A stretch of 64,000 nucleotides of DNA from Botryococcus braunii (Eukaryota; Chlorophyta; Trebouxiophyceae). Made by a program: the position numbers and the translations under genes. How positions within the stretch are numbered: position 1 is the first letter of the stretch; every line of letters starts with the position of its first letter. The notes below the pieces were generated by a model. It was not told the DNA's origin. It did no database searches and saw only the letters and a list, made by a program, of their open reading frames with translations. The DNA lies in assembly GCA_002005505.1 (NCBI GenBank), contig KV908645.1, positions 12,501-76,500 on the forward strand, read 5' to 3'. Shown here in pieces: positions 348-60,526 of this stretch.

Positions 348-1324
348 TCAAACGGCCGTCTCGCCCCACTTGGGCGGGCCCAACTCCTGGTGACGGTGGT
401 AGGCGTTGATGGTGTCCTTTGCGTGGTCGAACATGTCCAAGGGCTCCCAGTCGTCTCCGACGTCGTAACCTGACCACAGTACCCAGTACTGGTAGGCTGG
501 GGTACCGTCCGGGAAGTGGAGGGCCCGGCTCCCCTTCATCAAGGGACGGTGACCCAGGATGCCGTCCACGACGTACTCGGCATTCTCCGTGCCGTCATCG
601 CCCTTGACCATGCGTGGTCCCGGCTGGTATTTGTAAATGCTGAGGCGGTCTGGGTTACGTGGCCCCTTGTAGAGGTCCACATATTCCACGTTTATGCGTG
701 GGTGAAACTTCAGGGCGGCGGGGACGTCCAGCTCAACAGAGTTGGGATGGACGGCAGTGACCCGGAAGGGTCCAATCCGGCGCCTGGCAAGCTTTATGTA
801 CTTCTGCGACGTCAGGGCGGCTGGGAACTTCGTCCGAAGGAGAACAAGGTCCCCCTCCTTAAAGATCACAGCCCGGCGGTGGCGGTTCGCCTGGGCCGCC
901 TGCCGCTCCTGAGCTGCAGCCAAAAACTTCCGTGCATCTTCCGGAGGAAAAGATCTGCCCGATCTGCTTTCCCCCCCTCCATGTGTCCCATAGCAAATGG
1001 AATGTTTGGGTCCTGTCCATATGTCAAGCGGAACGGTGTGGTGTTGATCGAGGCTTGCCATGTATTGTTATAGGCAAACTCTGCAACAGCCAGATGGTTT
1101 TCCCATTCTTTAGGCTTATCCCAAACATAATGTTTGAGGTAGTCCTCAAGAATCCTGTTAACCCGTTCCGTTTGTCCGTCAGATTGTGGGTGATAGGCTG
1201 TAGACCGTGCAGGTTTGCAGCCTGTTAAATTTAGGAGTATATCCATAAATTTACTCACAAACTTAGGATCCCTATCCGACACAAGTTCCTGGTGGTGGTT
1301 GTGGTGGTCACAAAGTGAGCACAC
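348..1324 (-). pseudogene. pol: gypsy-1 integrase C-terminal half and chromodomain (frameshifted)
   Basis: Continuation of the gypsy-1 polyprotein after a break. The 866-1324 frame starts at the second catalytic aspartate (VSDRDPKF) and includes the DDE glutamate context (DGQTERVNRILEDYLKHY). A frameshift with small deletion near 930-950 passes reading to the 348-1061 frame, which has the integrase C-terminal GPF/Y-like segment (RRIGPFRVTAVHP) and a terminal chromodomain (YWVLWSGYDVGDDWEP). In chromoviruses this domain directs integration to chromatin marks. About 20 residues between the first-Asp region and VSDRDP, present in gypsy-2, are missing here at about 1325, which also breaks the frame. 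Confidence 0.85.
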
Positions 1325-4300
1325 TTACTTAACCGGTCCACCACAACCCATATGGCATCATTCCCGTTTGCACTCCGTGGCAACCCCGTTATGAAATCCA
1401 TGGAAATGCTTTGCCATTTCCTAGTCGGGATTTGCAAGGGGTGAAGGAGGCCTGCGGGCAACTTGTTTGAAGCTTTGACCCTTTGACAAGAATCACAGTA
1501 GGCAACATATTCCCGCACGTCCTCTGTCATTCCCGGCCACCACCATTCCCGTTTCACCAGTTCATACATCTTGGCAAAACCAGGGTGTCCCACATACAAA
1601 GGTTCATGCAATGCCTTGAGTATATCTTGTCTTAGGTTTCTCCCCACGACTCCTTCCCCATCCTTCACCTCATAATGCCCTGGGACATACTTTCGTCCCT
1701 CCTTCCCATATTCCCATATCCCATTCCTGAAATGCACCTTCCTTCTGTTCGACCTCTTTCCCAACCACTCATCATCCATGTAAGCCCTCTTTACTAACTC
1801 CAGGAAGGGTTCACACGTGTCAAGCTGCTGGGTGACTCCGCTCGGGCGGGCCCTCCCGCCGGAGTCCATTGCGACCCGGGGCTTGACACTCCTGAGCTCG
1901 GGCTCCGCTGGCTCGACGTTGCGTCGGAGCTGCCTGGCCGCGAGGATTGGGACCCTGGACAAGGCATCTGCGACGTTAGTCTTGCCTGGCTCCCAAACCC
2001 AGAGTATGTCAAACTCCTGCAATCGCTCAGCCCACCTAGCTCTTCTCGGGCTAAGTCCTGCCTGTTGTTGCAAAAAGGTATTACACTTATGGTCAGTGGT
2101 TACGGTGACTGGTTTTCCTAACACATAACATCTCCATTCCTGTAGAGCATACACTACAGCCAGCAATTCCCTTTCCGTAGCAGAATAGTTACGCTCTGCA
2201 CTATTCAACTTTTTGCTATAGTATGCTACTACTTTCCCGTCCTGCATGAGAACTGCTCCCACCCCAAAATCACTTGCATCACATGTCACTTGGAATGGTT
2301 TCCGAAGATCAGGTAGTGATAAGATAGGGGCCTCTACCAAAGCAGTCTTCAATGCTGAAAAAGATTCCTCCTGTTCCAATTCCCATTCCCATGCCCTCTT
2401 GCTGCTTGACAACTTTGTCAAGGGAGCAGCGATGGCACTGAAGTCCCTGATAAACTTCCTGAAGTAGTTTGCAAGGCCCAGAAACCTACGGACATCCGTG
2501 GTGTTTTTGGGTACGGGCCATTCCTTGACTACTTCCACCTTTTGTGGGTCCACCTTTAATCCATCCCTTCCAATGATATGCCCCAAGTATCGAAGTTCAG
2601 AACGCATGAACTCACACTTGGGTAGCTTGGCAAAGAGTTGCTTCTCTCGCAAGCGAGCGAAGACTTTTTCCAAATGAACATAATGCATGTTTTCATCCTT
2701 GCTGAAAATGAGCACATCATCCAAATAGACAACGACAAATCCCTCCCGAATGAAATCATGGAAGATTTCATTCATCAGCCGTTGAAAAGTGGCCGGAGCA
2801 TTCGTTAAACCAAAGGGGAGCACCAGAAACTCGTACAACCCAAATGGTGTTCTAAATGCTGTCTTTGGGATATCTTCTTCTTTAAGCCGGACCTGATGGT
2901 ATCCGCTCAATAAGTCCAGGCTTGAGAAGACCTTTGCTCCTTTGAGCCTATCAAGCAAATCATCAATCCGGGGCAAGGGGTACCTATCCGGAATGGTAAT
3001 CTGGTTGACAGCTCTATAATCAATTACCATCCTATAAGTTCCTTCCTTCTTTTTAACAAAAAGAAAAGGGGATGCATAAGGTGAGTGACTAGGCCGGATG
3101 TGCCCTAATGCGAGAAGCTCATCCACTGTTTTAGTACACTCTTCCATTTCTAGAGAAGATAAACGATAAGCAGGCCTATTAGGAGGTACAGAGCCAGGTT
3201 GTATCCTGATGGTGTGATACACCTGTCTGTGCGGTGGCAATCCTGGCAAACCTTGAGGAAACAAATCACAGTACTCCCTAAGGAACACCCCCAATTGTTC
3301 CGGTTTGCCCTTCAACACCTCCTCCAATCCCAAGGATCCCGTGAGCTTACCCGACGACGACGTTTGTTCCTCCTCCTCCTCCTCTATTATTCCCTCTTCC
3401 TCCCCCTCCACTGGGGGTTCCGAGAATAATTCCGGGACCGGCCCGCCCTGGGTACCCGGTCCCGTGGAGTTGGTTGAGGAGATGTGAAATTCGTCGTCGG
3501 AGGGATCGAGCCCGTTTTCCTCCAGGGATGACTCCTGCTCATCCCATGCATACTCTTCAGGTCTCATGACAACATTCAACAAACAAAGTCTCCATTGATC
3601 TACTTTGTTCTTCCCCTTCCTCACTATGTTCATACCCCATTGCAACGTGCAGGGTAAGACTTTCCTGTGAGGGTCCAACGTTACCCACTTCCCTTGATGT
3701 TTTATTTGTGCCTTTCCAACCCCAACACTGACTGTGGCCTCCCTTAGAGACATCCAGTCTTGTCCCAGAATGAGGTCCACCCCCTCCATGATAGAATCAC
3801 ATACAAAGAAAGTATGGCGGGTGACTACCGAAGGGGTGAACCTAACACTAAGGTCAACCTTCCCCTTGGTTTCAGACAAGGACCCATCTGCAAGGACTAC
3901 TGTTGTTGCTACCTTGTGATACCTAAGCCCTTGTAGCACTTTGCCTCGGACAAAGGAATGGGTAGCCCCAGTGTCCATGAGTGCACGAAACTCCATGCCT
4001 CGAACAGTAACGGCAAAAGTCAGGTTGAGTGGGGAGAGATTTCCCACATGCCCTACATGACAAGATGGTTGTGGCATGACACATGCAAGCACAAAGGAAA
4101 AAGGAAATATTCCTGCCTTGCCCGAGAACATAAATTGTTCTCCCCTACATCCCCGAGCAAGAACTTTTAGTTTGGCCTTTGTCCTATACTCTAAGAAAAA
4201 CCTCATGCTTTTCCAGACTTTTTGACTAATAACAAAGCAGGCACCAAGGCTGGGATCATGTTTTCTCTTTGCAAAGAAATCATGCAAGCAAGCCTCTGCA

Positions 4301-4670: not shown

Positions 4671-4851
4671 CCTTCTGTTATAATAGTGACAGAACATTTT
4701 TGGTGCCTTTCCCTCAGAAGAGTAATAGTGGCCAGATCAGCTTCGATGAATAATTGGTGGCAGAACCTGGGGGTTCTGCCAGATCCCATCTAGACCAATT
4801 GTACGTTGATTAGGAAGGATGAGGTAATCAGACACGATTTGCTAGAAAGGA

Positions 4852-4881
4852 TTTATGACACCGGCGTGCAAGGACGAGGCA
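4852..4881 (+). promoter_or_regulatory. predicted copia-A core promoter and transcription start
   Basis: TTTATG starts 29 bp before the first base (A, 4881) of repeat copy 1. The same spacing is seen in copia-C (TATATG, -29) and copia-E (TATATG, -29). The start of the repeat is therefore the predicted +1. No such box precedes copy 2. Inferred, not measured. Confidence 0.5.
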
Positions 4882-5027
4882 CTTGATTGGGACATTAAAG
4901 GCACTTCGGGTGCTTATCTCTTGACTGTTGCCTATCAAGTCCTCATTCACATTCGGTCACTGCTTGTTCTCCTACACACAACAAGAGTACCGACGAGCTA
5001 ATCACCCTTCGTGCCCGGGTCATACAG

Positions 5028-5357
5028 GTAAACTGACGTTAAGAGACTAAAGCCTCATTGACAACGAGTTAGGAAAGGTCTAGGTAGTATTCTTAAGTTG
5101 ATGCTAATGTTTTTCCTCGTTGAACACCGATAATGCAGACTATCGATAGTTACGTAGATTAAATAGTTTGAATTACGGAGCGATGAGAGAAAGCAAGTAG
5201 CATTGTAATGACTTGATTGGGACATTAAAGGCACTTCGGGTGCTTATCTCTTGACTGTTGCCTATCAAGTCCTCATTCACATTCGGTCACTGCTTGTTCT
5301 CCTACACACAACAAGAGTACCGACGAGCTAATCACCCTTCGTGCCCGGGTCATACAG
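5028..5357 (+). other. predicted LTR intron, copia-A (330 bp)
   Basis: Donor CAG|GTAAAC directly after repeat copy 1; acceptor CATACAG|G at the end of copy 2, with a CTAAT branch-like motif about 30 nt upstream. Splicing would join exon 1 (copy 1) to the 24-nt LTR tail and the PBS. It would also remove the UGUAA motif at 5204. Confidence 0.55.
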
Positions 5358-5382
5358 GGAACGCCAACCTCAGAAGTTTACA

Positions 5383-5412
5383 GGTTATGGGCCCACGTCT
5401 TTTCTGCTGAGG
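5383..5412 (+). promoter_or_regulatory. copia-A primer-binding site, initiator tRNA-Met anticodon/D-arm type
   Basis: GGTTATGGGCCCAC directly follows the LTR and is complementary to the anticodon loop and stem of plant initiator tRNA-Met, not to its CCA end. A second block further on (TTCTGCTG) matches the D-arm complement with one change. This is the half-tRNA priming layout known from Drosophila copia and yeast Ty5. Confidence 0.8.
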
Positions 5413-5448: not shown

Positions 5449-5973
5449 ATGGCGCGATCGAGACCAACCGGACGTATGAGCACGGGCGGAAGGAGACCAC
5501 CTCCACCTCCACCTCCTCCTCCAACCTATAACGAACGTAGAAAGGCAGGAGGAGAGAAAGGCCCACGGACGATAGAAGAACGAGCATTCCTGGTGAAGGA
5601 CTTCGTCCACGAAGCACACGGACGGGGAGCACTCACGCCCCCCCAGTGGTTCCGAGAGCGTTTTTCGATATACCCAGCTTACAAATTCACGGTTTGGGAA
5701 ATCTCATTCATCAACGGAGAGCCGGGATATTTGACACGAGCAATTTTTGAGAGGTGTTTACAGCAAACGGGAGGTCCATCGCACGAAGCATATTGGACAG
5801 AGAAAGCTGCCTACACAGCGGTTGAGCTAGCCTTGAGCAGCCTGGGAGACGACTTCATTGATCATCTGATTCTCTACGGCGGGGGAGAATTTCACGTGGA
5901 CGAGTGGGACACAGAGAACGACAGCGAGGACGAGGACGGAGACTCTAGACTGTCAGAAAGGAGCGACGACTGA
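5449..5973 (+). CDS. copia-A ORF1, conserved protein of unknown function
   Basis: 174 residues; I do not recognise the family. Basic N-terminus, then a run of nine prolines, then a conserved core (RTIEERAFLVKDFVHEAHG, WFRERFSIYPAYKFTVWE, FINGEPGYLTRAIFERC, EAYWTEKAAYTAVELAL) and a very acidic tail rich in D, E and S. It lies between the PBS and gag and ends 15 bp before the gag ATG. Homologues occupy the same position in copia-B0, B1, B3, C and E, with the core kept while the ends vary, which implies selection. No zinc knuckle, membrane segment or enzyme motif is visible. A capsid accessory, RNA-binding or regulatory role is possible but not shown. Confidence 0.85.
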   Translation: MARSRPTGRMSTGGRRPPPPPPPPPTYNERRKAGGEKGPRTIEERAFLVKDFVHEAHGRGALTPPQWFRERFSIYPAYKFTVWEISFINGEPGYLTRAIFERCLQQTGGPSHEAYWTEKAAYTAVELALSSLGDDFIDHLILYGGGEFHVDEWDTENDSEDEDGDSRLSERSDD

Positions 5974-5988
5974 CAGGGTCAGAACAGC

Positions 5989-8373
5989 ATGAAGAAGAAA
6001 GGTACCAGCATCAGCTCTGAATCAAAGTCAGCAGGAGAGGAATCCACGTCAACTCCTACCAGGGAGCCTTGCACTCCCAGCACCTCCAGAGGGGAAGGAG
6101 ACACCCTCCCCAAGGTTATTGCCACTCAGGTCAAGGTCCATATAAAACTGCTACGAAAGGGCCAGAACTTTGTGGTTTGGGATAATGCTTTCACTGCAGC
6201 AAATGATGCCAAGGGTTCCTTGCCAGCCATCCAACAATCTATGCCTGGGACCACCCACAATGCTGCTGCGTTGTTGTTGTTGTATGAGTCAGTACCAGAA
6301 GACTGGTTGGGGGAGCTGTCAAGTAAGCCATCTGCCTATGATGCATATGTGTATATCTGTAGGAAGTTTGTGGGAGGCTACAATACTCAGGCGAATGCTG
6401 ACTGGCTAAAGGAGATGTCCCGTGGCATGAAACAAGGGGAAACCATCTCTCAGTATGTCAATAGGATTATCAATCTGAAAGGTTGCTTGAAACGCAATGG
6501 ACATGATCTTCTAGATGGGCACGTGGCCACCCAGATTGTGCAGGGGCTACCAGCAGCAGCCAACCCCCCTGGACTACTACCCACAGCAGTTGCTTATCCC
6601 CTGGACCAACTAGCAGATCTCATCTCCACCACAGCAGAAGCAGTGGGCTACGATGATGACCCAGACCTGCCTGCAGTGGTCATGATTGCCCCACCAGTGC
6701 AGACTGTTGCAGCCCCTGCACCCACTGCCTGTGCTTTGGCTCAGACCAGACAGCCTGCAGACACAGAGACCAAGGTGGAGGTACGTGGTACATGCAACTA
6801 CTGCCACAAAAAGGGACACTTCTGGAGAGACTGCCGCAAGAGACAGAGGGACGCTGAAACCCAGAGGAATGTGGTGGCAGCAGTGCAGCAACTGGCGGGC
6901 ATGTGGCCCCAAGGTCAGTTTCCTGGAGGACCCCAGCCCCCTCCAGCAGTCCAGCATATCTTCCCGGCAGTGGGGGCATTCCCGCTGCTGCATCCACCTC
7001 CTGGTCCACCTTCTCCCCCACCTGAAGGTATGCCACTCGTGGTATCCTATAATGTTCTCAAACCTTGCAAGGGGAGAAGTTCCAAACAGTCCTGGTTGGT
7101 AGACAGTGGTGCGTCAGTCCATCTTGTCAATGATCTGTCACTGTTACATGCCCCCACAGTCCATGCTGCTCCCATTCCTCTGCAGCTGGCCACGTCTGAT
7201 GCAACAGGAGGAATTACTGCCACTGGATCAATTTGCCTATTGAACCAGCAATCAATCCCGCTGTGGCTGCATCATGTCCAGTGTGTTCCCTCTGCAACGA
7301 TGAACATCCTGTCTGTGTCAGCTGCCCTTCGTGATGGAGCCTGCTTTACCACAGACAGCATGGGTGCTTTTACCACAGTCTCTGGCCCGAATGGCTGGAA
7401 GATGCCAGTTAGAGCAGAAAAAGGGCTTTATTATGTACATGACTGCTTATCTGTTCCACCAGTGCAATGGTTGTCACCAGTGGCAGCAGCAGTGAAGAGC
7501 AAACCCAAGAAGAATCTGCAGCATGATTGTGCGAAACGGTTTTTGTGGCACAGCAGAATGGGACATCCAGGCGAACCATGGATGCAGCGCCTGAGTAATG
7601 AACAGCTGGTCACAGGCATTGATACCTCCCTGTCATCCTGTGAGAACTGTCCAAAGTATTGTGAAGCATGCATTGAGGGGAAGCACACTCGTCCTCCCTT
7701 TGGAGAAAGTTCCAGGCCTGCAATAAATCCTCTTGACAGAATCCATATAGACACTGTAGGCCCTATTTCACCAGCAGCCGTCTCTGGGGAACGTTTCTGG
7801 GTGACTGTAGTTGATGAGGCATCTGGATGGAAGGCTGTCCTACCTGTAAAGTCAAAGGATGTAATTGCATCAGTTGTCAGGGACCTGATCCTATTTTGGC
7901 AGACAGAAAGAGGGACAACTGTTAAGTGCATTCGGTGTGACAGGGGCACAGAATTTATTAATTCCAGATTCAAGGAATTCTGTGCAACTCAGGGCACTAA
8001 GCTGGAGATGTCTGCCCCCTACACACCCCAGCAGAACGGGATAGCAGAGCGTGCCAACAGGACCTTGAAGGAGCGCACCAGAACCCTCCTCAACTTTGCT
8101 GGTGCCAGCCCAGTCATGTGGAAAGAGGCCCTCGAGACAGCCTGCATCCTCCTGAATATGGGACCCAGTACAGGCAGGCCTCTCACTCCTTGTGAACTAT
8201 TCATGAGATACAAGCCAGATGTGTCACTTCTTCGTACGTGGGGATGTCTGGCATTCGTGCATGTGCCTGATCAGCAGAGGGGGGTATTTGCACCAAAGGC
8301 TGTGCCTGGCATGTTCACTGGTTATTCCCCAGTGTCCAAGGCATATCGTATTTATCTGGGAGGGGGAGTCTAG
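5989..8373 (+). CDS. gag-pol: copia-A gag-protease-integrase (ends at premature TAG)
   Basis: 794 codons. Capsid-like gag of UBN2 type (residues about 40-230), CCHC knuckle CNYCHKKGHFWRDC (about 269-282), protease WLVDSGASVHLVND (about 369), pre-integrase and HHCC zinc domain (LWHSRMGHPGEPW; CENCPKYCEAC), integrase core with first Asp (HIDTVGPI, about 585), second Asp (RCDRGTEF, about 649) and Glu (QQNGIAERANRTLKERTR, about 683). The order PR-IN-RT-RH is Ty1/copia. The frame ends at TAG 8371-8373 where copia-C has TGG (Trp), so this is a nonsense mutation rather than the natural end. A C-terminal integrase and linker follow in the same frame. Confidence 0.93.
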   Translation: MKKKGTSISSESKSAGEESTSTPTREPCTPSTSRGEGDTLPKVIATQVKVHIKLLRKGQNFVVWDNAFTAANDAKGSLPAIQQSMPGTTHNAAALLLLYESVPEDWLGELSSKPSAYDAYVYICRKFVGGYNTQANADWLKEMSRGMKQGETISQYVNRIINLKGCLKRNGHDLLDGHVATQIVQGLPAAANPPGLLPTAVAYPLDQLADLISTTAEAVGYDDDPDLPAVVMIAPPVQTVAAPAPTACALAQTRQPADTETKVEVRGTCNYCHKKGHFWRDCRKRQRDAETQRNVVAAVQQLAGMWPQGQFPGGPQPPPAVQHIFPAVGAFPLLHPPPGPPSPPPEGMPLVVSYNVLKPCKGRSSKQSWLVDSGASVHLVNDLSLLHAPTVHAAPIPLQLATSDATGGITATGSICLLNQQSIPLWLHHVQCVPSATMNILSVSAALRDGACFTTDSMGAFTTVSGPNGWKMPVRAEKGLYYVHDCLSVPPVQWLSPVAAAVKSKPKKNLQHDCAKRFLWHSRMGHPGEPWMQRLSNEQLVTGIDTSLSSCENCPKYCEACIEGKHTRPPFGESSRPAINPLDRIHIDTVGPISPAAVSGERFWVTVVDEASGWKAVLPVKSKDVIASVVRDLILFWQTERGTTVKCIRCDRGTEFINSRFKEFCATQGTKLEMSAPYTPQQNGIAERANRTLKERTRTLLNFAGASPVMWKEALETACILLNMGPSTGRPLTPCELFMRYKPDVSLLRTWGCLAFVHVPDQQRGVFAPKAVPGMFTGYSPVSKAYRIYLGGGV

Positions 8374-9957
8374 AGAGAGAGCAGAGATGTTCAATTTGTG
8401 GAGCACATCAGAGGAGCTTCTCGGGTGGGAATGTCCGCTCTCCTTGACCAGTCCCTGCAGTTCTCATATCCAGAAGGCTTGCCAGACCAACACCCTCTCA
8501 GCAATCCTGCTGCCTCCTCACCTCAGTGCAGCACTCGGAAACAGGCTGTCAGCGCTCCCTGTCCCAGCAGCAGACCTGACAGCTCCTTCCCAGTACCCTC
8601 TGACCAGGCTGCAACCGAGCCTGATAGTCAGGGGAAGTCTTCCCAAGAGGAGGACATTTCCGATGGGTCTCCTGAATCAAGCACGGGAGAACAGCTGCCG
8701 GACTTGGATCAGTCCGGGGCTCTGGACGCAATTCAACGACTGGCGCGAGGAAGCTCGGACAGTGGGCAACACCAACGGATATTAGAGAGAGCACAGCTGT
8801 TACTGCGTAACACTCTTCCGGCAACGACCATTCCGCCTCCGGATGGACTGTCGCGGGCTCAACGCTATGAGCAACGAACTGCAGCTCGAGATATCCTGCT
8901 GGCACAGGATAAGGGAGAGAGCTGTGAGCGAGAGGGGTTGACTGATGGTGACACAGAGTCACTGGGACCAGGGGAAGTGCAGGAATTGGGTCAGATCACC
9001 GAGAGACCTGTTTCACCTGTAAGAGATGAGAGGGGGGCAGTCTCTGATCAGACTGCAGATGGTCCAAGTGAGCTGAGCTGTATGGGTGGGACCTGCTCAG
9101 TGCCTGAGAGAAATGTTAGAGGTGAGAACTCAATATGTGATGCCCAAGGACAATGTGGTGCCAGCCACGCAAGTGTGGGCCATGCATGGGAGTGTGCTGC
9201 TGGGCCTGCGCCCCAGCGCTCATGTCTAATAGGGAGCAGACAGAGAGAGAGAGAGACATGGGCACAGCATCAAGACAGACCAAGAGCTCATGCAGTGCAG
9301 AGTGGTTCCAATGCCTGTGAGAGTCCAGACGGGACTGCAAACCGTCAGCCATGTGAGAGTGTGTCTGAGGAGGTGAATCGGAAGCCTGGACAGTGTGAGA
9401 ACTCCCCCAATTACAAGAGCTTTCCGAGAGGTACCTGTGTTTGGGAGGATGATGTGAGAGTGTCTGACAGCAAGCTTGAGAGGGCACACTGTGAGTCTCG
9501 AAGAGAGAAAGAGCAGAGGGGAAGATCTGAGTCTGTGCCCACAGTGCCCACATGCAGTGCGGCGACCTTCAGCGAAAGAGTAGTGGGTGACAGTGAGGGT
9601 GAGAGCAAGCAAGATCAGGGGAAGCATACTGGGGTGAGATTTGGGAAGATTAGTGTCCCTTCCAGTCTAAGGGAGGCCCAGCAGTCCCCTCAATGGGAAT
9701 ACTGGAAGGCAGCTATGCAGGAAGAGCAAAATTCGTTAGATGCTCATGAGGTAATGGAATTTGTTCCAAGACCTCGTGGTCATAAAGTAATCCCAGTTCA
9801 CTGGATTTTTTCAGTGAAAATGAATGCACATGGTAATGTGCTTAGATTCAAGGCGAGGCTGGTGGCTCAAGGGTGTAGGCAAATTCCAGGCGTTGATGTA
9901 ATGGAGGTATTTGCTCCCACCAGCAGTTATGGGTCTAGAAGAGCTTGCTGTCAGTAG
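8374..9957 (+). pseudogene. gag-pol: copia-A integrase C-terminus, variable linker and RT start
   Basis: Same frame as the preceding gag-IN part, read after the premature stop. It holds the end of integrase (RGASRVGMS), a long Ser/Glu/Gln-rich linker, one copy of a cysteine motif (QCENSPNYK, RGTCVWEDDVRV), then the conserved entry to RT (SLREAQQSPQWEYWKAAM; VIPVHWIFSVKMNAHG). A single-base deletion near 9942 (copia-C has AGAGCCTTACTG, here AGAGCTTGCTG) ends the frame at 9957; RT continues in another frame from 9945. Confidence 0.88.
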
Positions 9958-11231
9958 CTGCACAGGAGGGTCTTGAAATTCACCAGGTGGATGTCAAGAC
10001 TGCATTTTTGAATGGTGAATTAGAGGAGGAGGTCTATGTCACACAACCTCCTGGGTTTGAGAATGGGGATGGGAACACTGTGTGTCGCTTGAAGAAGGCA
10101 CTGTATGGCCTGAAGCAAGCTCCAAGGGCATGGCATAAGACCCTTAATGAGAAGCTACATACCATGGGGTATGAGGTGTGCAAGAGTGATGCTGGGGTCT
10201 ATGTGAAATGTTCTGTGGATGGAGGGAAATCCTTTGTGCTGATTTATGTTGATGATCTATTGATAGTTTCAAAGGGCATGAGTGAGATTGAGAGAGTGAA
10301 AGGGTTGCTGAAGCAGGAGTTCACCATTCATGATCTAGGAGAGGTGAAAGATTTCTTGGGCTGCCAAGTGATGAGAGATAGAGAGAAAGGGCTGATTTCT
10401 TTGAGCTGCATTCCCAAGATTGATGCCCTAGTTGAGAAGTTTGGGCTGGATCTGGAGTCTGTGGGGCCTGACACCCCTATGACTAAGGATTTTGTAGCCA
10501 CACAGCGACCTGTGTCTAAGGACAACAGTGCCAGCATTGGAGCTGGGAGTCCCTTACCTCCAGGTCACAGATATTGTGAACTGGTTGGATCACTGTTGTA
10601 CATTGCCAACACCACCAGGCCTGATATTTCCCAGGCTGTGGGAGTGCTCTCCAGATACAGGATTACTCCCACCACTGCTCACTGGAATGAAGCCATCAGA
10701 GTGTTGAAATATCTGATGGCTACCAGGGATCTTGTTTTAGTACTTGGAGGGAAGGACACAGAGCTGGAGGGCTTTGTGGATGCAGATTATGGTGGTGATC
10801 AGGATCATCGTTTTTCCACCACTGGTTACGTAATTCGTGTGTTTGGAGGAGCTGTAGTTTGGGGAAGCAAGAAGCAGTCTGCAGTGGCCACATCCACTGT
10901 AGAGGCTGAGTTTATGGCAGCGAGTGCAGCTGTCAAAGAGGCCAATTGGATGAAGGGATTCCTGGAAGAAATTGGTATTTCTCCATGGATTGTGAAGATC
11001 CACTGTGATAATCAGGGATGCATCAATCATCTCAGAAATCCAGTGTTCTCTAAGCATACTAAGCACATTGCAATCAGCTTTCATTTTGCTCGGGAAGCTA
11101 TTGCATTGGGGCAGGTTGATGTGAAATACGTTCCTTCTGCTAGGAATGTGGCAGATATATTTACCAAGCCTCTGACTAGGCAGGTATTTCAGAGTCATCG
11201 TGAGGCTCTGGGACTGGCCAAGTTTTTGTGA
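9945..11231 (+). CDS. gag-pol: copia-A reverse transcriptase and RNase H
   Basis: 428 codons, continuing RT after the frameshift. Motifs: [34 protein letters not shown], catalytic [10 protein letters not shown] (10245-10275), then Ty1-type RNase H ([42 protein letters not shown]) and the usual C-terminal FTKPL motif. The stop TGA at 11229-11231 abuts the purine tract. The connection segment and RNase H look intact. Together with the upstream parts this makes a full-length but non-coding-competent gag-pol. Confidence 0.92.
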
Positions 11232-11249: not shown

Positions 11250-11955
11250 TGTTATAATAGTGACAGAACATTTTGGTGCCTTTCCCTCAGAAGAGTAATA
11301 GTGGCCAGATCAGCTTCGATGAATAATTGGTGGCAGAACCTGGGGGTTCTGCCAGATCCCATCTAGACCAATTGTACGTTGATTAGGAAGGATGAGGTAA
11401 TCAGACACGATTTGCTAGAAAGGATTTATGACACCGGCGTGCAAGGACGAGGCACTTGATTGGGACATTAAAGGCACTTCGGGTGCTTATCTCTTGACTG
11501 TTGCCTATCAAGTCCTCATTCACATTCGGTCACTGCTTGTTCTCCTACACACAACAAGAGTACCGACGAGCTAATCACCCTTCGTGCCCGGGTCATACAG
11601 GTAAACTGACGTTAAGAGACTAAAGCCTCATTGACAACGAGTTAGGAAAGGTCTAGGTAGTATTCTTAAGTTGATGCTAATGTTTTTCCTCGTTGAACAC
11701 CGATAATGCGGACTATCGATAGTTACGTAGATTAAATAGTTTGAATTACGGAGCGATGAGAGAAAGCAAGTAGCATTGTAATGACTTGATTGGGACATTA
11801 AAGGCACTTCGGGTGCTTATCTCTTGACTGTTGCCTATCAAGTCCTCATTCACATTCGGTCACTGCTTGTTCTCCTACACACAACAAGAGTACCGACGAG
11901 CTAATCACCCTTCGTGCCCGGGTCATACAGGGAACGCCAACCTCAGAAGTTTACA
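11250..11955 (+). repeat. copia-A 3' LTR
   Basis: 706 bp with the same internal layout as the 5' copy: repeat copy 1 11454-11601 followed by GTAAAC, copy 2 11784-11931 followed by GAACGCC. TGTAA precedes copy 2. Ends in TTTACA, then the target duplication CCTTC. Confidence 0.95.
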
Positions 11956-11960
11956 CCTTC

Positions 11961-12936
11961 CGAGAGTCCAACTTTCCTCCCTTCCCTGGTGCACCAGGGG
12001 GTCCTCCAACAGCTCCCTAGAAGGGTGGTGACCCTTGAACTTCCTCTGGGATATGAGCTGCACCAAGATTGGTGTGGAAGTTCGATAGTGTCCTCCTCTT
12101 GGGGGACCTCCCTGTGCATCCCCATGGGCACTCTTGAAACCACCTTCATACTTGACCACAAAGGAGCACAAGTCATCCAGGTCTGTGAAGGGTTTCCCTG
12201 TCCCGGGGTTGATGGTACTGGCCAATCTTAACTGCACATTAAGACCCTACATGAATAAGTGCAACTTATCCTGCTCTACCATTTCATATTCCACCTCAAT
12301 ATCCGAAAGCAAAGCAACAAATCTTTCAATGTACCTCTCCACACTTTCATTCCCTTGGTATACTTTGTCAAGCTTTTGTCTTGCTATTGCTACTGTGTCA
12401 GTGGCATCATATCTTTTGGACATAAAAGCTTTAAAGTCTTCCCACTCTATGGCATCTTCCTCTCCTCCCTCTTTTTCCCACTTACGCACAAAAGCATCCC
12501 ACACTTTAAGAGGTCTTTCTTCCAAGTGTTGAACTGCCAAAGCAACCCACTTAGCATCAGGCACGTTTGTGAGTTTAGCATATGATGCCAATTTCCGTGC
12601 AAAAAACATAAAACTTCCACGTTTTACGTTAAAGAGAGAAGGAGGGGCAGCACGCACTTGCACCGGTTTGAGGATCGGTGCTTGGGCCTCAGCCTGCCGA
12701 GCCTCCAACTTTTGTTCGACTAACGTGTTAATGTATTCTTCAATTTCATCCTTTGACAAGGGGCGTTTCTTCCTTTTGCCTTCCGATCCCTCGGTTGTAG
12801 GGGCGATCGGGTTCATGGAATCGACGTCCTCCTCTAACAAATCCGTAACCTCGAAGCCTTCCCGCAAAGAACCTTCCAAAAGGCTTCGGTCGTCCTCAGA
12901 AAGGTTTTTAAACCTATCTGATGTCACCGAGCTCAT
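11961..12936 (-). pseudogene. gag: gypsy-1 gag N-terminal and central region
   Basis: The 229-codon frame 12247-12936 begins MSSVTSDRFKNLSEDD and contains a Ty3-type capsid region (FARKLASYAKLTNVPDAKWV; SKRYDATDTVAIARQKLDKV; VERYIERFVALLSDIEVEYE). A frameshift near 12240 passes to the frame 11961-12237 (LASTINPGTGKPFTDLDDLC), which runs into the copia-A insertion; the zinc-knuckle end is at 4438-4670. The closest relative in the window is gypsy-2 gag at 57210-58448. Capsid assembly is the family function. This copy is broken. Confidence 0.87.
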
Positions 12937-19423: not shown

Positions 19424-20160
19424 TGTGAACTTATGAGTTTGGCGTTTCTTGTATGACCCCGGCACGAAGGGTGCTTAGCTCTGCGGCTCTCTTGTTGTGT
19501 GTGTATAACAAGCAAGGCCGACTGTGTGTGTAGACACTTGACAGGCAACTGTTACTGATAAGCCCCCGGAGTGCCTTTATAGTCCCAATCAAGTCATTAC
19601 ATTGCTTATTGCTTTCTCTCATCACTCACATAATTCAAACTGATCACTCGACATATCGACCGATAGCCTGTCTTACTATTGTTTTATGAATCAAAACATT
19701 AGCATCTTCTAATCATACTATCTTGACCTCTTCCTAACTGAACGTTCATGAGCATCCAGTGCTCCAACATCAAGTTACCTGTATGACCCCGGCACGAAGG
19801 GGGCTTAGCTCTGCGGCTCTCTTGTTGTGTGTGTATAACAAGCAGGGCCGATTGTGTGTGTTGACACTTGACAGGCAACTGTTACTGATAAGCACCCGGA
19901 GTGCCTTTATAGTCCCAATCAAGTGCCTCAACCTTGCGAGCCGGCGACATATATCCATCTAGCATAAACGTGTCAGGTTACCTCAATCTCTCGAATCTAA
20001 GTGGAATCAGTCTAGATGGGTCTTGGCAGAACCTCTAGGTTCTGCCATCTATTACTCATTCTACAGATTGTTCCCGCTTGTTAATCTGAGCTGGCCTGGC
20101 CACTATTACTCTCCTGAGGGAAAGGCACATGTTTTCTCTTCCAAATATAAAAGTGTTGCA
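19424..20160 (-). repeat. copia-E 5' LTR with internal exon-1 duplication
   Basis: 737 bp. On the minus strand: U3 20160-19925; copy 1 19924-19778; spacer; copy 2 19594-19448; tail to 19424 ending GTTCACA. Six mismatches in 147 bp between copies. TATATG at -29 before copy 1; TGTAATG directly before copy 2. Copy 1 is followed by GTAACT; copy 2 ends CATACAAG|AAACG. A 10-bp inverted repeat lies in U3 (20025-20034/20037-20046). Confidence 0.88.
19449..19778 (-). other. predicted LTR intron, copia-E (330 bp)
   Basis: Donor CATACAG|GTAACT at 19778. The acceptor of this copy has mutated from CAG|G to CAAG|A, which still leaves an AG one base downstream. The leader fragment at 19340 keeps the original CAG|GAAACG. 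Confidence 0.5.
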
Positions 20161-21990: not shown

Positions 21991-22621
21991 TGTTGTATTT
22001 AGGTTATGGGCTGAAGACCTGCAAGCACGAGCAGAGCGAGTGATCAGTTGTCTTAGTTGGCTTGGCAGTCCGTGTGACGGCCTTACGCCATAAGCAGAAC
22101 ACTTGCTGCCTTCACACATGCATCAACCATTGATAGTGCTAGGCAAGTCGTTACATTTAGAGTCTTCTTATGCTAACGCAATTGAGCCTTCATAACATAA
22201 AACCTTGCATACGCTAACAAATATCTTGCATGATACTTGTCTCCCTGATCTTCACTCATAGGTATGACACCCACAACCCGATGAAGATACAGATGTTCAA
22301 CTGTTAAGTTATAGAGCAAGTAAATTGTCCATGCATGTCTAAACATGTCTAACTAGGCCAATCGGCCTTACCTGCACGCACGAGCAGAGCGAGTGATCAA
22401 TTGTCTTAGTTGGCTGGGCAGTCCATGTGACGGCCTTACGCCATAAGCAGAACACTTGATGTCTTCACACCTGCATCAATCGTTGATAGTGCTAGGCAAG
22501 TGACATTCAACTCCACTGCTTGCCTTTCAAATACCAGCGTTGCAAGATCACGCGTTGATCTGGCAACCATGTGCGAATACCGTACGACACTATTTATAAC
22601 ATGACCTTGTGCTTAATCACA
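21991..22621 (-). repeat. copia-D 5' LTR with internal exon-1 duplication (right end uncertain)
   Basis: Left end TGTTGTATTTAGG is firm from the PBS. Copy 1 22371-22501, copy 2 22018-22148 (131 bp each, 9 mismatches). Copy 1 is followed by GTAAGG, copy 2 by GTCTTC. TATTTG lies about 32 bp before copy 1 and TGTAACG directly before copy 2. The right boundary (TGTG... minus at 22621) is chosen only because of a TG terminus and could be off. Confidence 0.65.
22019..22371 (-). other. predicted LTR intron, copia-D (353 bp)
   Basis: Donor TGCAG|GTAAGG at the end of repeat copy 1, the best consensus donor of all families. Acceptor TGCAG|G at the end of copy 2. Confidence 0.5.
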
Positions 22622-23420: not shown

Positions 23421-24116
23421 TGTTGTGATAGATGAGTAATTTATGCCTTTCCCTCAGTGGAGTAATAATGGCTTTTCCGTCAGTGACAATAATAAGGGAC
23501 AAATAGGGCGAAACTGCAAAGACATCGTAGTTATGGTCAATTTGAATGTAGATAACGGTAACGCAAGTTACAGACACGTTTAGTGCAGGAAGGTAGTGGT
23601 GCTTGCACGGAGAGGCAAGGCACTTGATTGGGACTACACAAGCACTCCGGGTGTTTCCTTAAAGTTGCCCAATCAGTCCTTGATTGTTCATGTCCTAGAC
23701 TCTGCTCTTCGTCACACAGTAGAGCGGACCGTGACTCACACCCTCCGTGCCGCCACTGCACAGGTAACGTGATTGTGAATGGAATAGGAGATTTGAGGCT
23801 CTATTAGCCATTAGTATTTCATGTTATGTGTATGTGCTTGGCTTTCTTATCATCGGACAATGAGATTGATCCTTTCTGAGTGTGTACCAGTTAGGGTAGT
23901 TTGAATTCCGTTGTTAAGAGAGAGCGAGAGAGCAATTGTAATAAACTTGATTGGGACTACACAAGCACTCCTTAAAGGTGTTTCCTTAAAGTTGCCCAAT
24001 CAGTCCTTGATTGTTCATGTCCTAGACTCTACTCTTCGTCACACAGTAGAGCGGACCGTGACTCACACCCTCCGTGCCGCCACTGCACAGGAATACGCCA
24101 AGCCCATAACCTAACA
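23421..24116 (+). repeat. copia-B0 5' LTR with internal exon-1 duplication
   Basis: 696 bp. Copy 1 23622-23764 followed by GTAACG; copy 2 23945-24091 (with a private 4-bp insertion TTAA) followed by GAATACG. TGTAATAA directly before copy 2. Both copies share TTGATTGGG and CGGACCGTGA, which differ from B1 and B3. Ends GCCCATAACCTAACA. Confidence 0.92.
23764..24090 (+). other. predicted LTR intron, copia-B0 (327 bp)
   Basis: Donor CACAG|GTAACG, acceptor TGCACAG|G, with CTCAC branch-like motif about 25-30 nt before the acceptor. No clear TATA-like box at -29 in family B. Confidence 0.5.
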
Positions 24117-24513: not shown

Positions 24514-25205
24514 TGTTGTATTGGATGAGTTATTTATGCCTTTCCCTCCGTGGAGTAATAGTGGCTTTTCCGTCAGTGACAATAATAAATGACTAATATG
24601 GGCGAAACTGCAAAGACTTCGCGGTTAGGAACAATTTGAATGTAGATAGAGATAACGCAAGTTACAGACACGTTTAGTGCAGGAAGGTAGTGGTGCTAGC
24701 ACGGAGAGGCAAGGCACTTGTTTGGGACTACACAAGCACTCCGGGTGTTTCCTTAAAGTTGCCCAATCAGTCCTTGATTGTTCATGTCCTAGACTCTACT
24801 CTTCGTCACACAGTAGAGCGAACTTTGACTCACACCCTCCGTGCCGCCACTGCACAGGTAACGTGATTGTGAATAGAATGGGAGATTTGAGGCTCTGTTG
24901 GCCTTAGTATTTCATGTTATGTGTATGTGCTTGGCTATCTTATCATCGGACAATGAGATTGATCCGTTCTGAGTACGTACCAGTTAGGGTAGTTTGAATT
25001 CCGTTGTTAAGAGAGAGCAAGTGAGCAATTGTAATAGACTTGTTTGGGACTACACAAGCACTCCGGGTGTTCCCTTAAAGTTGCCCAATCAGTCCTTGAT
25101 TGTTCATGTCCTAGACTCTACTCTTCGTCACACAGTAGAGCGAACTTTGACTCACACCCTCCGTGCCGCCACTGCACAGGAATATGCCAAGCCCATAACC
25201 TAACA
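24514..25205 (+). repeat. copia-B1 5' LTR with internal exon-1 duplication
   Basis: Copy 1 24716-24858, followed by GTAACG; copy 2 25038-25180, followed by GAATATG; 143 bp each with one mismatch. Both carry TTGTTTGGG and CGAACTTTGA. TGTAATAG directly before copy 2. Tail ends GCCCATAACCTAACA. Confidence 0.95.
24858..25179 (+). other. predicted LTR intron, copia-B1 (322 bp)
   Basis: Donor CACAG|GTAACG, acceptor CTGCACAG|G, CTCAC branch-like motif in copy 2. Confidence 0.5.
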
Positions 25206-25234
25206 GGTTATGGGCCCACCACTCTCCCGTTGAG
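25206..25234 (+). promoter_or_regulatory. copia-B1 primer-binding site
   Basis: GGTTATGGGCCCACCAC adjoining the LTR; same bipartite complementarity to initiator tRNA-Met as B0, and the same palindrome with the LTR end. Confidence 0.8.
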
Positions 25235-31229: not shown

Positions 31230-31921
31230 TGTTGTATTGGATGAGTTATTTATGCCGTTCCCTCAGTGGAGTAATAGTGTCTATTCCGTCAGTGACAATA
31301 ATAAATGACTAATATGGGCGAAACTGCAAAGACTTCGCGGTTAGGAACCATTTGAATGTAGATAGAGATAACGCAAGTTACAGACACGTTTAGTGCAGGA
31401 AGGTAGTGGTGCTAGCACGGAGAGGCAAGGCACTTGTTTGGGACTACACAAGCACTCCGGGTGTTTCCTCAAAGTTGCCCAATCAGTCCTTGATTGTTCA
31501 TGTCCTAGACTCTACTCTTCGTCACACAGTAGAGCGAACTTTGACTCACACCCACCGTGCCGCCACTGCACAGGTAACGTGATTGTGAATAGAATGGGAG
31601 ATTTGAGGCTCTGTTGGCCTTAGTATTTCATGTTATGTGTATGTGCTTGGCTATCTTATCATCGGACAATGAGATTGATCCGTTCTGAGGACGTACCAGT
31701 TAGGGTAGTTTGAATTCCGTTTTTAAGAGAGAGCAAGTGAGCAATTGTAATAGACTTGTTTGGGACTACACAAGCACTCTGGGTGTTTCCTTAAAGTTGC
31801 CCAATCAGTCCTTGATTGTTCATGTCCTAGACTCTACTCTTCGTCACACAGTAGAGCGAACTTTGACTCACACCCTCCGTGCCGCCACTGCACAGGAATA
31901 CGCCAAGCCCATAACCTAACA
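31230..31921 (+). repeat. copia-B1 3' LTR
   Basis: 692 bp. Copies at 31432-31574 and 31754-31896. Preceded by the purine tract (to 31229). Followed by target duplication CATCG. Confidence 0.95.
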
Positions 31922-33190: not shown

Positions 33191-33882
33191 TGTTAGGTTA
33201 TGGGCTTGGCGTATTCCTGTGCAGTGGCGGCACGGAGGGTGTGAGTCAAAGTTCGCTCTACTGTGTGACGAAGAGTAGAGTCTAGAACATGAACAATCAA
33301 GGACTGATTGGGCAACTGTAAGGAAACACCCGGAGTGCTTGTGACGTCCCAAACAAGTCTATTACAATTGCTCACTTGCTCTCTCATAACAACGGAATTC
33401 AAACTATCCTAACTGGTACGTACTCAGAAAGGATCAATCTCATTGTCCGATGATAAGATAGCCAAGCACATACACATAACATGAAATATTAAGGTCAACA
33501 AAGCCTCAAATCTCCCTATCTATTCACCATCACGTTACCTGTGCAGTGGCGGCACGGAGGGTGTGAGTCAAAGTTCGCTCTACTGTGTGACGAAGAGTAG
33601 AGTCTAGAACATGAACAATCAAGGACTGATTGGGCAACTTTAAGGAAACACCCGGAGTGCTTGTGACGTCCCAAACAAGTGCCTTGCCTCTCCGTGCTAG
33701 CACCACTACCTTCCTGCACTAAACGTGTCTGTAACTTGCGTTATCTTTATCTTCATTCAAATTGTTCCTAACCGCTAAGTCTTTGTAGTTTCGCCCATAT
33801 TAGTCATTTATTATTGTCACTGACGGAATAGCCACTATTACTCCACTGAGGGAAAGGCATAAATAACTCATCCAATACAACA
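33191..33882 (-). repeat. copia-B3 3' LTR
   Basis: 692 bp. Repeat copy 1 33538-33680, copy 2 33216-33358 (143 bp, one mismatch, in GGCAACT(G/T)TAAGG). Both copies share GACGTCACAAG and GTTCTAGAC, which differ from B0 and B1. Confidence 0.95.
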
Positions 33883-39917: not shown

Positions 39918-40609
39918 TGTTAGGTTATGGGCTTGGCGTATTCCTGTGCAGTGGCGGCACGGAGGGTGTGAGTCAAAGTTCGCTCTACTGTGTGACGAAG
40001 AGTAGAGTCTAGAACATGAACAATCAAGGACTGATTGGGCAACTTTAAGGAAACACCCGGAGTGCTTGTGACGTCCCAAACAAGTCTATTACAATTGCTC
40101 ACTTGCTCTCTCATAACAACGGAATTCAAACTATCCTAACTGGTACGTACTCAGAAAGGATCAATCTCATTGTCCGATGATAAGATAGCCAAGCACATAC
40201 ACATAACATGAAATATTAAGGTCAACAAAGCCTCAAATCTCCCTATCTATTCACCATCACGTTACCTGTGCAGTGGCGGCACGGAGGGTGTGAGTCAAAG
40301 TTCGCTCTACTGTGTGACGAAGAGTAGAGTCTAGAACATGAACAATCAAGGACTGATTGGGCAACTTTAAGGAAACACCCGGAGTGCTTGTGACGTCCCA
40401 AACAAGTGCCTTGCCTCTCCGTGCTAGCACCACTACCTTCCTGCACTAAACGTGTCTGTAACTTGCGTTATCTTTATCTTCATTCAAATTGTTCCTAACC
40501 GCTAAGTCTTTGTAGTTTCGCCCATATTAGTCATTTATTATTGTCACTGACGGAATAGCCACTATTACTCCACTGAGGGAAAGGCATAAATAACTCATCC
40601 AATACAACA
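39918..40609 (-). repeat. copia-B3 5' LTR with internal exon-1 duplication
   Basis: Copy 1 40265-40407, followed (minus) by GTAACG; copy 2 39943-40085, followed by GAATACG. TGTAATAG directly before copy 2. Starts TGTTGTATTGG, ends GCCCATAACCTAACA. Confidence 0.95.
39944..40265 (-). other. predicted LTR intron, copia-B3 (322 bp)
   Basis: Donor CACAG|GTAACG at 40265, acceptor TGCACAG|G at 39944. Because B3 is intact this is the best candidate for testing the LTR-intron model. Confidence 0.55.
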
Positions 40610-44896: not shown

Positions 44897-45625
44897 TGTT
44901 ATAATAGTGACTGAACATTTTGGTGCCTTTCCCTCAGAAGAGTAATAGTGGCCAGATCAGCTCCAATTACCAGTGAGACCACTTATTAAAATGAGTAATA
45001 GGTGGCAGAACCTAGGAGTTCTGCCAGAACCAATCTAGACCAATTGCACGTTATTAAGGGAGGATGAGGTAATCAGACACGGTTTGCTCGAAAGGATATA
45101 TGCTCCTGGCTCGAAGGGTTGAGGCACTTGATTGGGACATCAAAAGCACTTCGGGTGTTTGCTACTTCACTGTTGCCAGTCAAGTCATCTCATTCACAGT
45201 CGACACTGCTTGTTACTCGACACACAACAAGAGTGTCGCCGGGCTAAACACCCTCGTGCCGGGTCATACAGGTAAACTGCTGTTAGGACATCACATGCAC
45301 AAGAACAATGGATTAGGAAAGGGTCTAGATAATGTGTAATAGAAAGGTGCTACCGCTTAGCTCATCGGACATCGGTAATGCAGACTATCAGTAACTTCGT
45401 AGATAGAGTAGTTTGAATTGCTGAGTGATGAGAGAGAGCAATAAGCATTGTAGGACTTGATTGGGACATCAAAAGCACTTCGGGTGTTTGCTACTTCACT
45501 GTTGCCAGTCAAGTCATCTCATTCACAGTCGACACTGCTTGTTACTCGACACACAACAAGAGTGTCGCCGGGCTAAACACCCTCGTGCCGGTTCATACAG
45601 GGAACGCCGAACTCAGAAGTTTACA
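44897..45625 (+). repeat. copia-C 5' LTR with internal exon-1 duplication
   Basis: 729 bp. Copy 1 45126-45272 followed by GTAAAC; copy 2 45455-45601 followed by GAACGCC; 147 bp each, one mismatch. TATATG starts 29 bp before copy 1. The motif before copy 2 is TGTAGG rather than TGTAA. U3 inverted repeat at 45004-45011/45018-45025. Confidence 0.93.
45272..45600 (+). other. predicted LTR intron, copia-C (329 bp)
   Basis: Donor CATACAG|GTAAAC, acceptor CATACAG|G; branch-like GCTAAAC about 30 nt upstream of the acceptor. Confidence 0.5.
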
Positions 45626-51491: not shown

Positions 51492-51639
51492 TGTTATAAT
51501 AGTGACTGAACATTTTGGTGCCTTTCCCTCAGAAGAGTAATAGTGGCCAGATCAGCTCCAATTACCAGTGAGACCACTTATTAAAATGAGTAATAGGTGG
51601 CAGAATGTAGGAGTTCTGCCAGAACCAATCTAGACCAAT
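51492..51639 (+). repeat. copia-C 3' LTR, truncated
   Basis: Matches the start of the 5' LTR (TGTTATAATAGTGACTGAAC) up to CTAGACCAAT and then stops at the gypsy-2 LTR. The remaining ~580 bp is not found on the far side of gypsy-2. Confidence 0.92.
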
Positions 51640-52115
51640 TGTAGTAGAATGCACAAGTTAGAGAGAATTTCCAAGTTGTGAGAGAGAGAGAGACAAGGCC
51701 GGATGGCCGACAAGTTGGACGCTCTTTCCAATTACAAGTAACCCCCACCTCACGGAGCTTCCACTCCCTACTTGTGGTCTACTAAGCTTCCAAATTACCT
51801 GAGTGCGTGTCTTCCCGTGGCTTACGTCTCTATCCGTTCCTTCCCGTGGTTCGTGATCGTGTGTTCACGTTCCTCCAATGGTAGTGCACTAGTCCACCAA
51901 ACCTCTACAATAGTATCTAGAAAATATCCTAGAATCCTACTATGAGAGTAACGTCCATAACTATCCAATGGAATTCGACGGCTAGGAAGCCAAGGCTAGA
52001 CGCTAGGCACGTGCGTACTCGCGTTGCTCGTACGACATGTGCACCACATGTGCGCCTAGGCTAGGGGGTAAGGGAAATGTCCAGAAATGCCGGGAAATCC
52101 CTACATTCCATTACA
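51640..52115 (-). repeat. gypsy-2 3' LTR
   Basis: 476 bp, TGTAGTAG...CCATTACA on the plus strand. Contains a GA run. No internal duplication. Confidence 0.93.
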
Positions 52116-58546: not shown

Positions 58547-58564
58547 GGCATCTCGCCGATACCA
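58547..58564 (-). promoter_or_regulatory. gypsy-2 primer-binding site
   Basis: Minus TGGTATCGGCGAGATGCC, 2 bp after the LTR end. It shares TGGTATCGGCGA with gypsy-1. Confidence 0.65.
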
Positions 58565-58566
58565 GA

Positions 58567-59042
58567 TGTCGTAGAATGCACAAGTTAGAGAGAATTTCCA
58601 AGTTGTGAGAGAGAGAGAGACAAGGCCGGATGGCCGACAAGTTGGACGCTCTTTCCAATTACAAGTAACCCCCACCTCACGGAGCTTCCACTCCCTACTT
58701 GTGGTCTACTAAGCTTCCAAATTACCTGAGTGCGTGTCTTCCCGTGGCTTACGTCTCTATCCGTTCCTTCCCGTGGTTCGTGATCGTGTGTTCACGTTCC
58801 TCCAATGGTAGCGCACTAGTCCACCAAACCTCTACAATAGTATCTAGAAAATATCCTAGAATCCTACTATGAGAGTAACGTCCATAACTATCCAATGGAA
58901 TTCGACGGCTAGGAAGCCAAGGCTAGACGCTAGGCACGTGCGTACTGGCGTTGCTCGTACGACATGTGCGCTACATGTGCGCCTAGGCTAGGGGGTAAGG
59001 GAAATGTCCAGAAATGCCGGGAAATCCCTACATTCCATCACA
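58567..59042 (-). repeat. gypsy-2 5' LTR
   Basis: 476 bp, TGTCGTAG...CCATCACA on the plus strand; about seven differences from the left LTR. Confidence 0.93.
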
Positions 59043-60506: not shown

Positions 60507-60525
60507 CTTCCCCTTGCCTGCATGC
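60507..60525 (-). promoter_or_regulatory. copia-F polypurine tract
   Basis: Minus GCATGCAGGCAAGGGGAAG directly before the 3' LTR; the core AGGCAAGGGGAAG matches all other copia families here. Confidence 0.88.
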
Positions 60526-60526
60526 T

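Follow-up and report, generated by a model that had tools for sequence, protein, structure and literature searches.

In HTLV-1 and the foamy viruses, a splice donor lies in R, the genomic RNA is unspliced, and the unit stands once in each long terminal repeat (LTR). Drosophila copia is primed by a half-tRNA. The introns of Ogre and EVADE are located beyond the LTR, and no exon copy is known to restore them. PMC12786077 names these two as the intron-bearing exceptions among plant LTR elements, whose introns serve subgenomic RNAs via alternative splicing. The same text recounts the Ty intron test of 1985, in which retrotransposition removed an intron through the RNA intermediate.

We analyzed a stretch of 64,000 nucleotides of Botryococcus braunii DNA (the window) and its relatives in the same genome of 176 Mb, from which all the evidence comes. 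The LTRs of its copia elements differ from these systems in their internal repeat, which an earlier note on this DNA had read as a predicted exon 1 and its cDNA copy. We know of no copia element with an LTR-internal intron and a doubled exon 1. In the literature searched, mostly open-access titles and abstract openings and including PMC12786077 and PMC8226300, we met no account of an intron being maintained in an LTR through a copied exon.

LTR structure of copia-A

Copia-A is a Ty1/copia element, as seen from its coding domains, LTR ends, and target duplications. Its features are as follows.

4676..5382, plus strand: copia-A 5' LTR, TG...CA, 99.7% identical to 11250-11955; the LTR pair is flanked by the 5-bp target duplication CCTTC
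4676..4880, plus strand: U3, with TTTAT at −29 from copy 1
4881..5027, plus strand: copy 1, the predicted exon 1; begins at the A of ACTTG after a C and ends in CATACAG
5028..5357, plus strand: predicted intron, with a GTAAAC donor, the spacer, a poly(A) signal, and copy 2 with a CTAAT branch-like site and a CAG acceptor
5204..5208, plus strand: TGTAA, the green-algal poly(A) signal and sole TGTAA of the copia-A LTR; starts 7 nt before copy 2
5211..5357, plus strand: copy 2, read as a cDNA of spliced exon 1, its first bases being the predicted R; identical to copy 1 and co-varying with it in relatives
5358..5382, plus strand: LTR tail, the start of predicted exon 2
5383..5396, plus strand: putative primer-binding site GGTTATGGGCCCAC
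5449..11231, plus strand: coding region with integrase, SH3-like, and RVT_2 domains, integrase before reverse transcriptase
11250..11955, plus strand: copia-A 3' LTR, copies at 11454 and 11784

The direct repeat had been described as 148 bp long (4881-5028 and 5211-5358), and the description holds: the copies are identical at 147 of 147 positions (4881-5027 against 5211-5357), and the 148th base is the first G of GTAAAC and GGAACG. The TATA-like box claimed 29 bp before copy 1 is also present, as the TTTAT in U3. The putative primer site GGTTATGGGCCCAC is presumably complementary to the anticodon arm of the initiator tRNA. In the coding region, the open reading frame at 5989-8373 contains rve, gag_pre-integrs, and SH3-like domains, and RVT_2 was matched in the frames at 8398-9957 and 9945-11231. 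We infer splicing of the predicted copia-A intron; a splicing event is recorded in the DNA only in family I, described below.

Repeat-bearing LTRs of the window

When the window was scanned blindly for direct repeats, requiring 20 or more shared 16-mers at a shift of 230-480 nt, the only hits were 11 LTRs: two of A, one of B0, two each of B1 and B3, and one each of C, D, E, and F. Those other than copia-A are listed here.

23421..24116, plus strand: copia-B0 LTR, copies at 23622 and 23945
24514..25205, plus strand: copia-B1 5' LTR, copies at 24716 and 25038; donor GTAACG, TGTAA at −8, target duplication CATCG
31230..31921, plus strand: copia-B1 3' LTR, copies at 31432 and 31754
39918..40609, minus strand: copia-B3 5' LTR, copies start at 40407 and 40085; predicted intron 40265-39944, target duplication TATAT
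33191..33882, minus strand: copia-B3 3' LTR, copies start at 33680 and 33358
44897..45625, plus strand: copia-C LTR, copies at 45126 and 45455; TGTAG at −6
22018..22501, minus strand: copia-D repeat block, copies start at 22501 and 22148; donor GTAAGG at 22371
19448..19924, minus strand: copia-E repeat block, copies start at 19924 and 19594; acceptor decayed, copy 2 ending in CAA
59841..60303, minus strand: copia-F repeat block, copies start at 60303 and 59975; donor GTACGG at 60169

The earlier note had reported the same layout in the other copia types, and two copies were found at every place that it gave. For the types on the minus strand the places are valid (19448 for E included), but the numbers mark exon/intron borders and not the copy starts. 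It had further held that GTA follows copy 1 in every case and never copy 2. GTA does follow copy 1 in 11 of the 11 window LTRs; after copy 2 the distinction is narrower in D, where GTC follows, which is GT and not GTA. TGTAA or TGTAG stands just ahead of copy 2 in all 11 of these LTRs. The layout itself is confirmed for the window.

The 3' LTR region of copia-F (59760-60560, minus strand) is matched at 99-100% by 40 scored places, the window's own included, and had 1814 first-look candidates in the genome, so the family looks very young and abundant. Further repeated blocks of the window, unassigned to copia, pair 837-3186 with 53555-55990, 51634-52115 with 58561-59042, and 12091-12645 with 57614-58163 at 68-98% identity. 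Elsewhere in the genome (G000:C260:49257-50649), a pair of D-type LTR matches is arranged head to tail, the two overlapping by 5 bases.

Border signals across LTR families

The flanks of other loci contain further families (A', F', G, H, and I) with the same layout as the window types. Border signals were counted in 11 LTR types (A, A', B, C, D, E, F, F', G, H, and I), with one LTR for each. GT directly follows copy 1 in all 11 types, as GTA in eight and as GTG in F', G, and H, and TGTAA or TGTAG starts 5-8 nt before copy 2 in all 11. With a list of TATA-like motifs, 10 types were scored for the region 22-38 nt upstream of copy 1; such a motif is present in A, A', C, D, E, G, and H, and none from the list was found there in B, F, and F'. 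Branch-like sites, searched with the loose motifs CTAAT, CTAAA, CTAAG, CTGAT, and TTGAC, place the branch A 22-30 nt from the border in seven of eight LTRs examined; B0 has none by this pattern.

PMC4701671 reports an enrichment of UGUAA in Chlamydomonas at 10-20 nt ahead of the poly(A) site. In PMC1868727 it is the top pentanucleotide in all chlorophytes studied except Pyramimonas, with elements around −15 to −20. Since TGTAA starts 5-8 nt before copy 2, the Chlamydomonas spacing would let the predicted RNA end roughly 2-15 nt inside copy 2.

The spacers of families A, B, C, and E are clearly related (identity of 0.60-0.73), whereas those of D and F are 0.50-0.55 identical to all others. Among 200 shuffles, the observed similarity was reached by 163 for A-F, 45 for B-F, 13 for D-F, 6 for A-D, and 1 for B-D. 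The D and F spacers are therefore at or slightly above the shuffled background with respect to the A/B group, and a faint common origin with the other spacers is possible. Because both borders are kept although the D and F spacers are near background, a chance origin of the border signals is very unlikely.

Two side observations concern the copy and tail regions. At L030 (minus strand, from 626), copy 2 of family H is about 33 nt shorter and contains neither the branch-like site nor the acceptor; a deletion at an AGG microhomology and an alternative donor both fit, and this copy was not used as evidence. The LTR tails of B, D, F, and H carry GCCCATAACC near their end (25190-25218 in the window, and L030). 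It is complementary to the primer site just past the LTR in B and H, with one mismatch in D, and a hairpin across the LTR border could possibly form from the two sequences.

Comparison of the two copies between elements

We compared 28 A, 33 B, and 21 D LTRs (82 in all) from 15, 21, and 11 elements, counting LTRs matched over nearly their full length and excluding five loci (L001, L005, L009, L011, and L039) as duplicates of the window. Variants found in at least two elements numbered none in A, three in B (sites 6, 73, and 76), and five in D (sites 55, 86, 97, 98, and 116). These sit in both copies of every LTR that carries them, with one exception, the D element of the window, where site 86 reads C in the first copy but A in the second; we take this for a later change in copy 2. 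Nine more variants, each confined to a single element (one in A, six in B, two in D), are also concordant between the copies. Variants present in one copy only (7 in A, 17 in B, and 20 in D) are each restricted to one element; at D site 130, one element has an A in copy 1 and another has it in copy 2, which we read as two separate mutations. Concordance amounts to 63 of 63 element-by-site cells in B, reached by none of 10000 element shuffles, and to 64 of 66 cells in D, reached by 5 of 10000. The 30 F loci were too alike to inform, both copies matching the F unit at 100%.

Changes after insertion were followed in 35 LTR pairs (13 A, 12 B, and 10 D, the D pairs matched by distance). Target duplications of 5 bp were found for 12 of the 13 A pairs, the pair L086/L087 being the one with no duplication found, and for 12 of the 12 B pairs. 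The 5' and 3' LTRs differ at 27 positions, which are positions and not events, as adjacent differing positions were counted separately: 13 lie in copy 1 only, 14 in copy 2 only, and none in both. Two differences between the copies are common to both LTRs of an element, and hence date from its birth; they occur in two of the 35 pairs (L018/L030 of B, which is included among the pairs with a target duplication, and L096/L097 of D); a change in one parental LTR or a copying error would fit both.

Shared variants thus occur in both copies and changes after insertion in one only, which means that the copies are equalized at retrotransposition and not in the chromosome. At the level of sequence, this comparison demonstrates for A, B, and D that the equality of the copies is renewed only at transposition and that the copies drift afterwards.

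An intron missing from copy 2 of family I

The family I LTR was found in L025. Its copy 1 holds an extra 86 nt (GTAAGCCCC...CATTGAC...GGTACAG) and is composed of 133 nt, an 86-nt GT-AG intron (GTAAG...TTGAC...TACAG), and 68 nt. Copy 2 has 201 nt and is an exact fusion of the intron flanks, followed by the tail and the same primer site. Four LTRs were compared base by base. When the intron is removed from copy 1, the two copies are identical at 201 of 201 positions in three of them (L111, L112, and L113) and at 198 of 201 in L110, a locus that coincides with L025. Of 40 scored genome matches across the family I LTR, none shows a gain or loss of 86 nt, query and genome spans agreeing within about 3 nt.

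Genome-wide, with at most two mismatches, there are 51 spliced and 51 unspliced junctions of family I. They form 43 pairs in the order unspliced to spliced, 40 of them at exactly 358 nt and one each at 341, 375, and 171 nt. No pair in the reversed order occurs among the 51 and 51 sites, and no two alike junctions lie within 1000 nt on one strand. Eight spliced and eight unspliced sites are unpaired; one of each kind lies at C657, 335 nt apart on opposite strands.

Copy 2 of family I is best read as a DNA copy of the spliced copy 1, which also fixes the direction of copying. The GT-AG intron is precisely absent from copy 2, and this much can be taken from the alignments as demonstrated. Intron 1 of family I is also complete in the 3' LTR, so that the RNA would contain both of its splice sites there. 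With no double-spliced LTR among the 51 sites, the 5' LTR must be spliced and the 3' LTR not, which counts against the explanation that we prefer. Transfer between two RNAs or suppressed splicing of the last intron would resolve the discrepancy.

Discussion

The best explanation of these data, to which we give a probability of roughly 0.87, is a Ty1/copia LTR carrying an intron that is restored in each cycle via the spliced leader. In the 5' LTR, transcription would begin with the first base of copy 1, and splicing would then take out the intron, consisting of the spacer and copy 2. The result would be an RNA that begins with exon 1, a short tail, and the primer site; the end of exon 1 would serve as the donor side in copy 1 and, together with the branch-like site, as the acceptor side in copy 2. 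In the 3' LTR, the TGTAA just upstream of copy 2 would direct cleavage and polyadenylation of the RNA to a point a few bases past the start of that copy. This cleavage would remove the acceptor and the branch site and leave the second donor with no partner, so that copy 1 and the spacer would stay in the 3' end of the RNA. Reverse transcription from an initiator-tRNA fragment would then copy the tail and the spliced exon 1 as strong-stop cDNA. This cDNA would be transferred to copy 2 when its end pairs with the short R that opens the copy. The new LTR would take U3, copy 1, and the spacer from the 3' LTR, and copy 2 and the tail from the spliced 5' leader. If the RNA runs from copy 1 to copy 2, an unspliced leader would make the LTR gain one unit per cycle, whereas a spliced leader would restore it exactly.

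The earlier note proposed that each new LTR receives its copy 2 as newly made cDNA from the spliced exon 1, and this is supported by the equality of the copies at birth in A, B, and D and by the absence of the intron from copy 2 of family I. We infer the start site, the poly(A) site in the first bases of copy 2, the point of strand transfer, and the primer. An exact-match pattern search revealed no poly(A)-tailed retrocopies of F. This negative counts against the spliced-leader cycle, as do the loose branch-like motifs with none in B0, the shortened copy 2 of H at L030, the decayed acceptor of E, the unpaired junction sites of family I, the partial evidence for D and F as copia elements, and the restriction of the data to one genome. 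It is likely that the elements replicate in a way not described before for LTR retrotransposons, with one or two spliceosomal introns in the LTR, the spliced leader as the obligate strong-stop template, and the second exon 1 copy as both the landing site and the product. The intron would survive an RNA stage expected to erase it, and the poly(A) signal would be hidden in the intron of the 5' LTR and active in the 3' LTR.

The same product could arise with no splicing in families that have no inner intron, if reverse transcriptase jumped between the direct repeats on an unspliced leader and the shortened strong-stop cDNA were transferred to copy 2; the repeats would be homogenized and the donor would be incidental. 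Long direct repeats are known hot spots for such template jumps. However, family I loses its 86-nt intron with exact borders at GT and AG, which a jump between the repeats cannot achieve, and such a jump leaves the GT at the end of copy 1 in 11 of the 11 types unaccounted for. It would also give mixed copy numbers, whereas no doubled junction exists among the 51 and 51 family I sites, and we regard this route as very improbable. Splicing may instead be real, with two RNA species needed per particle: the strong-stop cDNA made on a spliced RNA would move to the 3' end of another RNA that had stayed unspliced. This would account for the intron 1 found in the 3' LTR of family I. Unspliced RNAs in the particle should then sometimes be primed and yield LTRs with an extra unit, but the same 51 and 51 sites contain no doubled junction; transfer between two RNAs is unlikely in our judgment.

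Two further explanations dispense with a spliced leader. The repeat could be a static duplication whose copies are equalized by chromosomal gene conversion, which would agree with the greater similarity of the two copies of one LTR than of copies from different families. Conversion would yield shared changes, but none of the 27 post-insertion positions in the 35 pairs is common to both copies; it would also move the family I intron into copy 2 or out of copy 1, and no doubled junction was found. On the LTR pairs and the family I junctions we reject this explanation, whose chance of being right is minimal. The LTR could finally be an ordinary copia LTR that starts and ends the RNA in the same copy, with GT, TGTAA, and the duplication as unrelated accidents, and most plant LTR elements are indeed described in PMC12786077 as having no intron. 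Such an LTR predicts independent evolution of the copies, which is contradicted by their co-variation, and the position of TGTAA or TGTAG and the GT border hold even in families whose spacers are near the shuffled background. We consider accident to be scarcely credible.

Restoration via the spliced leader, if true, has several consequences. Retrotransposition erases introns, and a spliced exon copy beside an unspliced one would preserve them. The old puzzle of why one poly(A) signal is passed over in the 5' LTR but used in the 3' LTR would have a solution as well, since the signal would be intronic in the 5' LTR and cleavage in the 3' LTR would remove the acceptor. As a DNA record of spliced RNA, copy 2 would allow start sites and splice junctions to be deduced from assembled genomes, and other genomes can be screened for the layout.

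Directly 3' of the LTR stands GGTTATGGGCCCA, a putative initiator-tRNA primer site. The frame adjoining the copia-F LTR contains RVT_2, and the frames adjoining copia-D LTRs contain SH3-like above and Pol_BBD below the cut-off. Family I has the same primer site as the others, with no Pfam match in the one short frame scanned. A reverse-transcriptase piece had 6144 relatives among 8000 scored proteins. No relatives were confirmed in bacterial/archaeal and viral contigs, collections that may leave out records of this genome, and the pattern is so far known from one genome. Scans of the window for tRNA genes and for Rfam families at the gathering threshold gave no match. On the host side, the genome of the window has 35 chlorophyll a/b-binding matches, counted exon by exon, which mark a photosynthetic eukaryote, and the gene at L069 is presumably Lhca-like; together with TGTAA, this gene suggests a green alga.

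With Ty1/copia elements (Pseudoviridae), the elements described here share the integrase before RVT_2, TG...CA LTRs, 5-bp target duplications, and, putatively, an initiator-tRNA-like primer site; they differ in that the predicted intron is wholly inside the LTR and exon 1 stands twice in each LTR. A splice donor inside the LTR and downstream of the start site, here a predicted one, is shared with HTLV-1 and the foamy viruses, but the predicted reverse-transcribed leader here is the spliced one. An intron in the transcript of an LTR retrotransposon is common to Ogre and EVADE, where it is functional according to PMC12786077, and to the present elements, where it is predicted. As in the Ty test, an intron is removed by way of an RNA; here, however, only a single copy within the LTR is affected, and its partner retains the intron. 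The element and its host are of known kinds, and the design of the LTR seems to be new.
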